Made by a program: the position numbers and the translations under genes | Notes under the pieces: model-generated | Database searches by the model: none | What the model was told of the DNA's origin: nothing | Seen by the model: only the letters and a program-made list of their open reading frames with translations | Shown here: one piece after another, positions 48,420 to 57,056 of the stretch | How positions within the stretch are numbered: the stretch's first letter is position 1 | Layout: each line of letters starts with the position of its first letter | Assembly: GCF_001421415.1 (NCBI RefSeq) | Contig: NZ_LMKH01000039.1 | Location: forward strand, 1-64,000 | From: Sphingomonas sp. Leaf208 | GTDB lineage: Bacteria > Pseudomonadota > Alphaproteobacteria > Sphingomonadales > Sphingomonadaceae | DNA: 64,000 nucleotides | Direction: 5' to 3'

Positions 48420-49946
48420 ATGCGGACGATCGAGAATTTCGTTAGCGGTGCGGCCAGCACGGCCGAGCGCTTCGGTGATGTATTCGACCCGAATTCGGGC
48501 GAGGTGCAGGCGCGCGTGCGATTGTCGGGCGCGACCGATCTGGACCGTGCGGTCGCTGCCGCGCAGGAGGCGCAACCCGGCTGGGCGGCGACCAACCCGC
48601 AGCGTCGCGCGCGCGTGATGTTCGAGTTCAAGCGGCTCGTCGAAGCGAACATGGACGAACTCGCGCGGATGCTCTCGTCCGAGCACGGCAAGGTGATCGC
48701 GGATTCGAAGGGCGATATCCAGCGCGGGCTCGAGGTGATCGAGTTCTGCTGCGGCATCCCGCACATCCTCAAGGGCGAATACACGCAGGGCGCCGGGCCG
48801 GGGATCGACGTATATTCGATGCGCCAGCCGCTCGGTATAGGTGCGGGTATCACGCCGTTCAATTTCCCGGCAATGATCCCGCTGTGGATGTCGGGCGTAG
48901 CGATCGCCACGGGCAACGCGTTCATCCTCAAGCCGTCCGAGCGCGATCCGTCGGTGCCGGTGCGGTTGGGCGAATTGTTTGTCGAGGCGGGGCTGCCCGA
49001 GGGCATCTTCCAGGTCGTCCACGGCGACAAGGAAATGGTCGACGCGATCCTCGATCACCCGGCGATCTCGGCGGTGAGCTTCGTCGGGTCGTCCGACATC
49101 GCGCATTACGTGTACCGTCGCGGCGTCGAGGCGGGCAAGCGCGTCCAGGCGATGGGCGGCGCGAAGAACCACGGTATCGTCATGCCCGACGCGGACCTCG
49201 ATCAGGTCGTCGCCGACCTGTCGGGTGCGGCGTTCGGGAGCGCCGGCGAGCGCTGCATGGCGCTGCCGGTGGTGGTGCCGGTGGGCGAGAAGACCGCGAT
49301 CGCGTTGCGCGAGAAACTGATCCCGGCGATCGCGGCGCTGCGCGTTGGCGTGTCGACCGACAACGATGCGCATTACGGGCCGGTGGTGAACGCGGCGCAT
49401 CGCACCCGGATCGAGAACTGGATCCAGACCGGCGTCGACGAGGGCGCGGAACTGGTCGTCGACGGGCGTGGGTTTGCGTTGCAGGGCCACGAGAAGGGCT
49501 TCTTCATCGGGCCGTCGCTGTTCGACCACGTGACCACCGAGATGTCGGCGTACAAGGAAGAGATCTTCGGGCCGGTGCTCCAGATCGTCCGCGCCGCCGA
49601 CTTCGAGGAGGCGGTGCGCCTGCCGAGCGAGCATCAATACGGCAACGGCGTCGCGATCTTCACGCGCAACGGTCACGCGGCACGCGAGTTCGCGGCACGA
49701 GTGAACGTCGGGATGGTGGGGATCAACGTGCCGATCCCGGTGCCGGTGGCGTATCATACGTTCGGTGGCTGGAAGCGCTCGGCGTTCGGCGACACCAACC
49801 AGCACGGCATGGAGGGCGTGAAGTTCTGGACCAAGGTCAAGACGATCACGCAGCGCTGGCCGGACGGGTCTGCGCTGCCGGCGATGGCCGAGGATGGTGG
49901 GCCTGCGCGCGATAACGACGCGTTCGTTATTCCGACGATGGGGTGA
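48420..49946 (+). CDS. mmsA: Methylmalonate-semialdehyde dehydrogenase (CoA-acylating)
   Basis: 508 residues of the aldehyde dehydrogenase fold. The catalytic C279 is in GSAGERCMALPVVV, the NAD-binding region PFNFPAMIPLWM and VGSSDIAHYVY, and the family-specific FNFPAM and NVGMVGINVPIPVPVAYHTFGGWK. It converts methylmalonate or malonate semialdehyde plus CoA to propionyl- or acetyl-CoA, the last step of valine breakdown. The ATG at 48420 follows AAGAGG. It heads the valine cluster; a repeat/GIY-YIG cassette follows it. Confidence 0.95.
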   Translation: MRTIENFVSGAASTAERFGDVFDPNSGEVQARVRLSGATDLDRAVAAAQEAQPGWAATNPQRRARVMFEFKRLVEANMDELARMLSSEHGKVIADSKGDIQRGLEVIEFCCGIPHILKGEYTQGAGPGIDVYSMRQPLGIGAGITPFNFPAMIPLWMSGVAIATGNAFILKPSERDPSVPVRLGELFVEAGLPEGIFQVVHGDKEMVDAILDHPAISAVSFVGSSDIAHYVYRRGVEAGKRVQAMGGAKNHGIVMPDADLDQVVADLSGAAFGSAGERCMALPVVVPVGEKTAIALREKLIPAIAALRVGVSTDNDAHYGPVVNAAHRTRIENWIQTGVDEGAELVVDGRGFALQGHEKGFFIGPSLFDHVTTEMSAYKEEIFGPVLQIVRAADFEEAVRLPSEHQYGNGVAIFTRNGHAAREFAARVNVGMVGINVPIPVPVAYHTFGGWKRSAFGDTNQHGMEGVKFWTKVKTITQRWPDGSALPAMAEDGGPARDNDAFVIPTMG

Positions 49947-49967: not shown

Positions 49968-50051
49968 CGTCATCCTGACGAACGTCAGGACCCAGAGCCA
50001 CGGGCGTAGGGGCTCGTGGCTCTGGGTCCCGGGTCAAGCCCGGGATGACGG
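49968..50051. repeat. Composite palindrome, family F (copy 1)
   Basis: CGTCATCCTGACGAACGTCAGGACCCAGAGCCAC on the left and GTGGCTCTGGGTCCCGGGTCAAGCCCGGGATGACGG on the right form a long hairpin. It gives the last codons of the GIY-YIG gene on the minus strand. Confidence 0.92.
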
Positions 50052-50357
50052 CCGGGGGAGCGGATCGAAGCCCCAATCCTCTGCCAGATCGCGCCACGTC
50101 GGATTGTCAGCTTCGATCAGTTCGATTTTCCAGGCGCGGTGCCAGTTCTTCAACTGCTTCTCGCGAGCTATGACCCCCTCCATCGTGTCCGCCATCGCGA
50201 ACCAAACGAGCCGTTTGACGCCGTACATTCGCGTAAAGCTGCCAAAGGATCCGGCACGATGCTGAACGATCCGCGCCATCAGGTTGGACGTGACGCCGAT
50301 GTACAGCGTCCCGTTGCGCCAGCTTGCGAGGATGTAGACAGCCGGTTGCCGATCCAC
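50034..50357 (-). CDS. GIY-YIG nuclease domain protein
   Basis: 107 residues forming a single GIY-YIG domain: VYILASWRNGTLYIGVTSNL holds the two signature strands (here VYI and YIG), R35-like MARIVQHRAG follows, then the catalytic Glu helix region MEGVIAREKQLKNWHRAWK. Such UPF0213/YhbQ-like proteins are small nucleases of unknown target. GTG at 50357 is preferred because GGGGGA precedes it; an ATG at 50378 inside the repeat is in frame. The last residues (about PSSRA) are encoded by family F copy 1, and copy 2 lies just upstream. It is opposite in strand to the valine genes it interrupts. Confidence 0.88.
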   Translation of the reverse strand: MDRQPAVYILASWRNGTLYIGVTSNLMARIVQHRAGSFGSFTRMYGVKRLVWFAMADTMEGVIAREKQLKNWHRAWKIELIEADNPTWRDLAEDWGFDPLPRPSSRA

Positions 50358-50371
50358 GTCATTTCCCCCAA

Positions 50372-50456
50372 TCGTCATCCTGACGCACGTCAGGACCCAG
50401 AGCCACGAACACCGGCGTCCGTGGCTCTGGGTGCCGGGTCAAGCCCGGCATGACGG
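50372..50456. repeat. Composite palindrome, family F (copy 2)
   Basis: CGTCATCCTGACGCACGTCAGGACCCAGAGCCACG and CGTGGCTCTGGGTGCCGGGTCAAGCCCGGCATGACGG. It is very close in sequence and the same orientation as copy 1, with the GIY-YIG gene between them. Confidence 0.92.
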
Positions 50457-50469
50457 AGATAGGACCACG

Positions 50470-51627
50470 ATGAACCAGTTCACCTCAAACCAGTTCGACC
50501 TCACCGACGACCAGCGCGAGATCCAGGAGCTGGCGCGCCGCTTTACCGCAGACCGGATCACGCCGCATGCGGCCGAGTGGGACGAGAAGCACATCTTTCC
50601 GCGCGATACGATCAAGGCGGCGGCCGAGCTCGGCTTTGCGGCGATCTACGTCAGCGAGGAGAGCGGAGGGATCGCGCTTGGGCGGCTCGAAGCGGCGCTG
50701 ATCATGGAGGCAATGTCGTACGGATGTCCTTCGACGTCGGCGTTCATCAGCATCCACAACATGGCGGCGTGGATGATCGACCGGTTCGGTTCGCAGGCGG
50801 TGAAGGACAAGTATCTCCCCAGCATGGTGACGATGGACCGGCTTGGCAGCTATTGCTTGACCGAGCCGGGGTCGGGTTCCGACGCGGCTGCTCTGAAGAC
50901 GCGAGCCGTCCGCGACGGCGACGACTGGATCGTGACGGGCTCGAAGCAGTTCATCTCGGGTGCGGGCGAGAACGAGGTGTATGTCACCATGGTCCGCACC
51001 GGTGAGGACGGGCCGAAGGGCATCTCGTGCCTGGTGATCGAGAAGGACATGCCGGGCGTGTCGTTCGGCGCGAACGAAAAGAAGCTCGGCTGGCATTCGC
51101 AACCGACGCGGCAGGTGATCTTTGACGGCGTCCGCGTGCCGGCGGCGAACATGGTTGGCGGCGAGGGCGAGGGCTTTCGGATCGCGATGATGGGGCTCGA
51201 TGGCGGGCGGCTGAACATCGGTGCGTGCTCGCTCGGCGGTGCGCAGCGGTGTCTAGACGAGGCGATCGCGTATACCAGGGACCGCAAGCAGTTCGGGAAT
51301 GCGATCGCGGATTTCCAGAACACGCAGTTCATGCTGGCGGACATGGCGACCGAATTGGAGGCGGCGCGCGCGTTGCTTTACATGGCGGCTGCGAAGGTGA
51401 CGGCGAACGCGCCCGACAAGACCAAGTTTGCGGCGATGGCGAAGCGGCTGGCGACGGACACGGGGTCTTCGGTGGTCGACCGTGCGTTGCAGCTGCATGG
51501 CGGGTATGGGTATCTGCAGGATTATCCAATCGAACGCTTCTGGCGTGATCTGCGGGTTCATTCGATCCTGGAGGGGACGAACCAGGTCATGCGGATGATC
51601 GTCGGTCGCGAGCTGACGCGGCAGTGA
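50470..51627 (+). CDS. Acyl-CoA dehydrogenase (isobutyryl-CoA dehydrogenase-like)
   Basis: 385 residues. SYCLTEPGSGSDAAALKTRA binds flavin, the hydride path includes FISGAGENEVYVTMVRT, and the C-terminus has LQLHGGYGYLQDYPIERFWRD with the Glu/Arg region and ILEGTNQVMRMIVGREL. It matches branched-chain (isobutyryl-CoA) dehydrogenases and its place after mmsA supports oxidation of isobutyryl-CoA to methacrylyl-CoA in valine breakdown. The start at 50470 (MNQFTSNQFDL) follows GGAC weakly. The family F palindrome ends 13 bases upstream. Confidence 0.92.
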   Translation: MNQFTSNQFDLTDDQREIQELARRFTADRITPHAAEWDEKHIFPRDTIKAAAELGFAAIYVSEESGGIALGRLEAALIMEAMSYGCPSTSAFISIHNMAAWMIDRFGSQAVKDKYLPSMVTMDRLGSYCLTEPGSGSDAAALKTRAVRDGDDWIVTGSKQFISGAGENEVYVTMVRTGEDGPKGISCLVIEKDMPGVSFGANEKKLGWHSQPTRQVIFDGVRVPAANMVGGEGEGFRIAMMGLDGGRLNIGACSLGGAQRCLDEAIAYTRDRKQFGNAIADFQNTQFMLADMATELEAARALLYMAAAKVTANAPDKTKFAAMAKRLATDTGSSVVDRALQLHGGYGYLQDYPIERFWRDLRVHSILEGTNQVMRMIVGRELTRQ

Positions 51628-56972: not shown

Positions 56973-57056
56973 CCGTCATCCTGACGAAAGTCAGGATCAA
57001 GGGTAACGGGTGGTGCCCTGTTTGGCTCTGGATCCTGACTTTCGTCTGGATGACGG
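56973..57056. repeat. Composite palindrome, family F (copy 3)
   Basis: CCGTCATCCTGACGAAAGTCAGGATCAAG pairs with GGATCCTGACTTTCGTCTGGATGACGG. It is more diverged than the pair around the GIY-YIG gene and has no nuclease gene next to it. Confidence 0.88.

Follow-up and report, generated by a model that had tools for sequence, protein, structure and literature searches.

Small GIY-YIG nuclease genes framed by CGTC-tagged palindromes in Sphingomonas: a candidate minimal mobile unit and its probable cognate hairpins

The nuclease gene and its flanking repeats

This work deals with a small GIY-YIG nuclease gene and the palindromic repeats framing it, which lie in a 64,000-nt stretch (the window) of contig NZ_LMKH01000039.1 from Sphingomonas sp. 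Leaf208, a genome of 4.70 Mb in 39 contigs. The gene is located on the minus strand between mmsA and an acyl-CoA dehydrogenase gene (Table 1), and the two repeat copies are direct repeats of 84 nt each, which are 87% identical and start 405 bp apart. The original prediction had described two matching palindromes of the same orientation around the gene, with its last codons in one copy and a start in the other, and had seen the unit as separating mmsA from the dehydrogenase on the opposite strand; all of this was confirmed, whereby the open reading frame (ORF) matches the GIY-YIG profile PF01541 with E 4e-14. Translation from the ATG yields 114 residues, while an alternative GTG start at 50357 (codon 8) yields 107.

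Alignment of 23 nuclease sequences, from which L087 and L097 (both with stops) and L102 were excluded, revealed Y15, Y26, H40 and N92 to be invariant and R36 and E73 to be present in at least 90%. These six residues are presumably the catalytic ones, and judged by its sequence the ORF of the window is a small standalone GIY-YIG domain in which the presumed catalytic residues are conserved. The gene is under purifying selection, with a median ratio of nonsynonymous to synonymous substitution rates (dN/dS) of 0.13 over 91 orthologue pairs of 14 sequences (L069 and L070, which are of out-of-frame length, and L073 being excluded), and an internal stop was identified in one of the 14 orthologues (L066). 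A phage origin of the nuclease was considered and rejected, with no tblastn match among 50,697 phage records, as was membership in a known phage-defence system, for which no PADLOC model matched.

Closer analysis identified each 84-nt palindrome as a head-to-head pair of two different hairpins of about 27 nt with their CGTC tags pointing outward. The first hairpin reads CGTC-ATCCTGAC-GNAC-GTCAGGAC-CCA and the second, on the opposite strand, CGTC-AT(C/G)CCGGG-CTTGA-CCCGG(G/C)AC-CCA. With their tag, a stem of 8-9 bp, a loop of 4-5 nt, a CCA tail, head-to-head dimers and many copies, these repeats fit the definition of CGTC-tagged repetitive extragenic palindromes (CGTC-REPs), a superfamily characterized in Di Nocera et al. 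(2013, PMC3733652) by the CGTC tag, a stem starting with AT, a loop of 4 or 5 nt, the CCA tail and head-to-head dimers; the first stem pair in the REP copies of the window is A-C and not A-T. The first hairpin (23 nt, at most 3 mismatches) occurs at 4 sites in the window, compared with a mean of 0.01 over 100 shuffles. Within the whole genome one repeat copy obtained 74 BLAST matches, many of them overlapping on both strands, and a generic REP pattern matched 117 times, the reversed control pattern not at all. A scan of the window with Rfam returned nothing at gathering scores.

Table 1. Features of the window around the nuclease gene (Ssn, the neisserial protein, is introduced in the next section; family F is the palindrome family of the original prediction).
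Feature	Position	Strand	Basis
mmsA, methylmalonate-semialdehyde dehydrogenase	48420..49946	+	TIGR01722, 634 bits
Repeat copy 1, head-to-head dimer of two CGTC-REPs, contains the nuclease stop and last five codons	49968..50051	+	
CGTC-REP, 4-nt loop type, stem ATCCTGAC, in copy 1	49968..49994	+	
CGTC-REP, 5-nt loop type, stem ATCCCGGG, loop CTTGA, in copy 1	50023..50050	-	
GIY-YIG nuclease ORF, Ssn-like, 114 aa from ATG	50034..50378	-	ORF list, PF01541 profile
Repeat copy 2, dimer like copy 1, contains the nuclease ATG	50373..50456	+	
CGTC-REP, 4-nt loop type, in copy 2	50373..50399	+	
CGTC-REP, 5-nt loop type, stem ATGCCGGG, in copy 2; CGTCATGC site; escapes the strict pattern behind the REP counts	50428..50455	-	
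Acyl-CoA dehydrogenase	50470..51627	+	profile search and comparison with relatives
Further family F dimer, no nuclease	56974..57055	.	hairpin search

Association of nuclease and repeats across genomes

A strict CGTC-REP was found within 200 bp of the nuclease at 34 of 40 loci; for the other ORFs around it, which served as controls, the count is 20 of 349, and REP density amounts to 62 in 52.2 kb near the nuclease versus 26 in 596.8 kb far from it, a 27-fold difference. These loci, one per genome in stretches of 10-17.5 kb, were taken from the best-scoring matches listed, avoiding contig ends, and were chosen before their flanks had been viewed. Among 30 named sphingomonad nuclease loci, 29 have a strict REP within 250 bp, a number which depends on how the tag is defined, as the narrower tag CGTCAT leaves nine of the 30 without a REP within 500 bp and the tag CGTCA(T/C)(T/C)C, used in all other REP tests, leaves only one without a REP within 250 bp. 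That the association is due to chance, or to the common intergenic location of nuclease and REPs, is hardly conceivable: REPs are extragenic indeed, but the control ORFs of the same stretches contradict chance proximity, and p4, a different and distant GIY-YIG subfamily of these genomes, has a CGTC-REP within 250 bp at only 1 of 18 loci.

The nuclease-repeat family is not specific to sphingomonads; homologues together with REPs occur in other bacteria as well, including the gonococcus. At 18 other named loci (Maricaulis, Microbulbifer, Alteromonas, Bacteroidota, candidate phyla and others) a strict REP lies within 250 bp in 13 cases, and REP density is 21 in 13.9 kb near the nuclease versus 4 in 79.8 kb far from it. 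The gonococcal homologue is identical to the window nuclease at 55 of 88 residues (63%), and 16 CGTC-REPs lie around it in a 3.3-kb stretch that extends 1.5 kb to each side of the gene. Its record NZ_CP119140.1 (L287) is labelled a plasmid, yet it is 2.17 Mb in size and most likely represents the gonococcal chromosome. On plasmid AZO_p3 of Azospirillum lipoferum (L288) the nuclease lies between sufB and sufC with REPs on both sides, an operon interruption as in the window. In Neisseria meningitidis a protein named Ssn (Chenal et al., Nat Commun 2025) is reportedly a sequence-specific single-strand nuclease which acts on the NTS repeat and modulates natural transformation.

On the scale of whole genomes, a nuclease match with E of at most 1e-3 was obtained in 222 of 298 genomes of the family, belonging to 82 of 96 genera. 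The original prediction expected more repeats where the nuclease is present, and this was borne out, the median number of REPs per genome being 15 in 202 genomes with the nuclease (best E at most 1e-15, a cut-off set by us) and 1 in 96 without it (Mann-Whitney p 9e-17, uncorrected for kinship); zero REPs were counted in 32 of the latter. At the level of single genes, 131 nucleases of this type were compared, and 99 of them are accompanied by a strict REP at a distance of at most 250 bp.

Pairing of nuclease and repeat types

The pairing of nucleases with REP types was analysed in 14 genomes picked for high copy number, from which 90 of 105 listed places were used, the 15 dropped ones being fragments, interrupted copies and weak matches; nine duplicate rows were removed from the REP-type and flank tests, and L222 and L223 are part of the flank inverted-match test but not of the REP-type, architecture and tree tables. 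Up to 12 nuclease matches were found per genome, and paralogues within one genome bear different REP types. When each nuclease receives a label from the REP closest to it (stem end plus loop length), the only REP that the type test uses, the nearest nuclease of another genome carries the same label in a fraction of 0.73 of 48 cases, compared with 0.23 after shuffling within genomes. With near-copies collapsed, the label matches in 28 of 39 cases versus 9.2 +/- 2.9 expected, and the loop class alone in 34 of 39 versus 19.3, a level which in both tests was reached by none of 1000 shuffles. As labels were shuffled within genomes, the effect of each genome's REP stock is removed. On a tree of 79 non-redundant proteins, whose resolution is poor (36 of the 76 inner branches open), loop class changes 10 times versus 26 times when shuffled. 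Position 78, within the LK-x-W motif, is most informative on loop class (0.59 bit versus a shuffle maximum of 0.33, relatedness being uncorrected), whereby 25 of 42 four-loop cases have K and 33 of 37 five-loop cases have R or N; the window nuclease, which possesses N78, has REPs of both loop types at its borders.

A strict REP is present on both sides of 58 of the 131 nucleases, and in these two-sided units the nearest tags point outward on both sides in 48 and both nearest REPs are of one type in 49. Outward tags on both sides mean that the nuclease gene lies inside an otherwise head-to-head REP dimer. The window unit is unusual in this respect, as it has a whole dimer on each side, with the outermost tags pointing outward as well. 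REPs might alternatively be hot spots for any mobile small gene, the nuclease having inserted at repeats made by another process. This we consider improbable: insertion sequence elements are reported in PMC1525189 to target REPs, and 12 genomes have at least 20 REPs without this nuclease type, but the type pairing survives shuffling within genomes, REP type follows the nuclease tree, and one REP type on both sides prevails in two-sided units. The pairing of nuclease and REP would furthermore explain why several REP types occur in one genome.

The genome of the window contains three further small GIY-YIG genes. A paralogue with 63% identity lies 57 bp from a dimer with a different stem (CCCGGC), on its upstream side only, one with 45% is flanked by inverted copies of CCCCGGCGAAGGCCGGGGTCCAGTTGGGAA, and a distant fourth gene (29%) by inverted copies of CCGTTCGTCCCGAGTAGA, so that all four adjoin palindromic repeats, of four different types. 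Two of these paralogues, L003 (G000:C12:60402-63692) and L004 (G000:C34:54758-57967), are bounded by different palindromes. For p4, the distant subfamily to which the fourth gene belongs, an inverted match of at least 12 nt between the flanks was found at 13 of 18 loci versus 17% of shuffled pairs, five of the 13 starting with CCGTT(C/T)GTCC; the use of p4 as a plain negative control for CGTC-REPs was hence given up, as it carries palindromes of its own.

Units in several copies

Nuclease and palindromes were expected at different loci, and they were found at many, in some relatives as multicopy units. G071 (one contig) possesses five dispersed units that are 94-97% identical over 443-513 bp, G021 three dispersed units of which two are 99.8% identical over 458 bp, G294 (one contig) three dispersed units (95-97.5% identical) and G111 (one contig) four (81-94%); in all four genomes unit homology ends inside the compared loci of 2.2-3.3 kb. 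Two dispersed loci of G071 have a common 137-nt deletion in the nuclease gene, are 95% identical over 381 bp and keep both REP ends, and a further unit, in G294, lacks 169 nt. Short direct repeats border the 137-nt deletion and a double origin is possible, but both copies have substitutions relative to the full unit L214 in common as well. Multiplication of a deleted, nuclease-dead unit implies action in trans. The signs by which a mobile element is recognized, one unit at several unrelated loci and deleted copies of it, come from these four relatives and do not concern the unit of the window.

L333, L334 and L335 are nuclease-dead units that carry an internal deletion but still have a REP at each end. 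Around several multicopy units (L216, L222, L223, L206, L207 and L214) an outer GCGGAC...GTCCGC inverted repeat was observed outside the REPs. The sequence GCGGACATT, considered as a general insertion target, was rejected, since its frequency in the vicinity of nucleases is not clearly raised (1 in 36 kb versus 11 in 597 kb).

Movement of family F by RAYT/IS200-type transposases, with the nuclease as a bystander, is extremely improbable. Passages of PMC3733652 point to a general likeness between CGTC-REPs and GTAG-REPs, but the same passages report no RAYT gene flanked by CGTC-REPs, and the Y1/RAYT transposase profile PF01797 found no match in any of 12 genomes, that of the window included, while as a control it did match in E. 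coli and in four further genomes. The absence of RAYT claimed by the original prediction holds for all 12, and RAYT as mobiliser is contradicted in these genomes.

Proposed mode of spread and its weighing

Taken together, we consider it probable that the Ssn-like GIY-YIG nuclease recognises the adjoining CGTC-REP, that the two form a cognate pair and that REP-nuclease-REP is an autonomous minimal mobile unit, of which dimers and internally deleted units are the miniature inverted-repeat transposable element (MITE)-like forms. Even chances are given by us to the wider proposal that CGTC-REPs, which are dispersed in several phyla and have so far had no mobiliser, come from a class of minimal mobile elements, as their ends and MITE-like offspring, and that a GIY-YIG single-strand nuclease of about 100 residues is all that these elements encode, each lineage recognising its own hairpin, with a second GIY-YIG subfamily behaving likewise towards another palindrome. 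The original prediction had named the nuclease as the agent which may spread or maintain family F; its tie to the repeats was observed, while cleavage of the REP by the nuclease, and cleavage as the driver of spread, would be the mechanism behind it as far as sequence comparison can suggest one. The REP would fold into a hairpin when its strand is single, as on the lagging strand or during transformation or conjugation, and the nuclease would cut at the tagged single-stranded hairpin. As GIY-YIG enzymes hydrolyse DNA without religating it, joining would be left to the host, whose repair may transfer the DNA between the REPs, by copying or swapping, to sites that already have a REP or to new ones. 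Such repair at REP ends could account for in-place changes of dimer type and orientation, and family F dimers as well as internally deleted units would be non-autonomous forms.

Several points weigh against this proposal. No GIY-YIG enzyme is known to join DNA. For the multicopy units L222, L189 and L214, each searched in its own genus, neither a clean empty site nor a target duplication was found; pieces of their flanks are present in these genera without a clean unit-free junction, and in some genomes unit homology extends about 20-75 bp beyond the REPs. The correlation between nuclease and REP number, clear in the medians, is incomplete, as 8 of the 202 genomes with the nuclease have zero REPs and the 12 REP-rich genomes among the 96 without this nuclease type include two with 183 and 199. 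A weaker nuclease match was obtained in 6 of these 12, and such genomes may have lost the nuclease, may possess a more distant one or may have had their REPs spread otherwise. Likewise, 32 of the 131 nucleases are without a strict REP within 250 bp; in 24 of the 32, however, an inverted match of at least 12 nt connects the flanks, versus 8% of shuffled pairs. Finally, the nuclease is located between mmsA and the dehydrogenase in all 16 close relatives found by nuclease search.

Four more distant loci also have the nuclease between mmsA and the dehydrogenase, and a dehydrogenase-based search of 40 genus genomes found it at the site in 5, including 3 of the 5 closest (dehydrogenase 97-98% identical). 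Direct joining of mmsA to the dehydrogenase without the unit (gap at most 130 bp), anticipated by the original prediction as the empty site, was found in 7 of the 40; another 5 showed no mmsA within the stretch, and of the remaining 23, the 15 that were read all have other ORFs. The window unit is a patchily distributed, older insertion which keeps its place where it is present. Across 17 orthologous loci (the window and L064-L079), one intergenic site beyond the dehydrogenase differs between members, some of which have one of three different palindromic dimers there and others relics of deletions. The dimer next to the nuclease stop is oriented oppositely in two groups. The dimers flanking the window unit have changed type and orientation between species. 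In ten Sphingomonas loci (L252, L253, L256, L258, L260, L261, L280, L281, L283 and L286) an ORF that looks lipoprotein-like by eye replaces the nuclease in a mmsA-dehydrogenase gap of 473-546 bp.

The unchanged place in 16 relatives, purifying selection and the 63% identity to a gonococcal gene within a dRS3 array would suit a nuclease that is an Ssn and, as is reported for Neisseria, controls DNA uptake or recombination through dispersed REPs, the REPs being kept by host use and not spread by the nuclease. This explanation is possible but rather unlikely, as it does not account for multicopy units and multiplied nuclease-dead units, for genomes with as many as 12 nuclease matches and several REP types, or for the exchange of dimers that one site shows between closely related species. 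If a cognate nuclease and its multiplying REP-bounded units are what spreads CGTC-REPs, this would be a concrete and testable answer to a question which the 2013 survey left open, and the large natural set of nuclease-hairpin pairs would be a source for reading off single-strand cutters of chosen specificity.

Comparison with known systems

The repeats of the window share tag, stem, loop, tail and dimers with the CGTC-REPs of PMC3733652, and the paired nuclease is the proposal made here. According to passages of that survey, CGTC-REPs occur mostly in alphaproteobacteria and lack a dedicated transposase, and the neisserial CGTC-1 repeats are equated with dRS3; the word nuclease appears once in its main text. 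Among the papers listed in a literature search by title and abstract opening, covering few subscription papers, no link between GIY-YIG nucleases and REPs was found, and the searched passages of PMC12306157 do not contain the term GIY-YIG.

In the REP/RAYT system (TnpA-REP, Y1 transposase) an enzyme gene is likewise bounded by REPs that are dispersed elsewhere. It differs in that the enzyme is unrelated and that the tag is GTAG there and CGTC here; given the tag and the lack of Y1 transposases in the 12 genomes, the window unit was not assigned to it. UPF0213-like GIY-YIG proteins belong to a common fold family with the window nuclease, whose best PDB sequence match is one of them (1zg2, E 7e-4); p4, which we tentatively liken to these proteins, accompanies palindromes other than CGTC-REPs.

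Closest is the Ssn/NTS system, which likewise consists of a small standalone GIY-YIG protein and repeats dispersed in the genome. The gonococcal homologue sits among CGTCATTCCC...GGGAAT repeats; it is presumably the orthologue of the meningococcal ssn, and NTS presumably represents dRS3. For Neisseria, a nuclease of this kind paired with a repeat dispersed in the genome has probably been published already. In contrast to Ssn/NTS, several paralogues per genome with different REP types, head-to-head heterodimers, and multicopy as well as deleted units in relatives were found here. If Ssn acts as reported, this type of enzyme activity is already known, and the new part is REP-nuclease-REP as a mobile unit and CGTC-REPs in general as the cognate sites of such nucleases.
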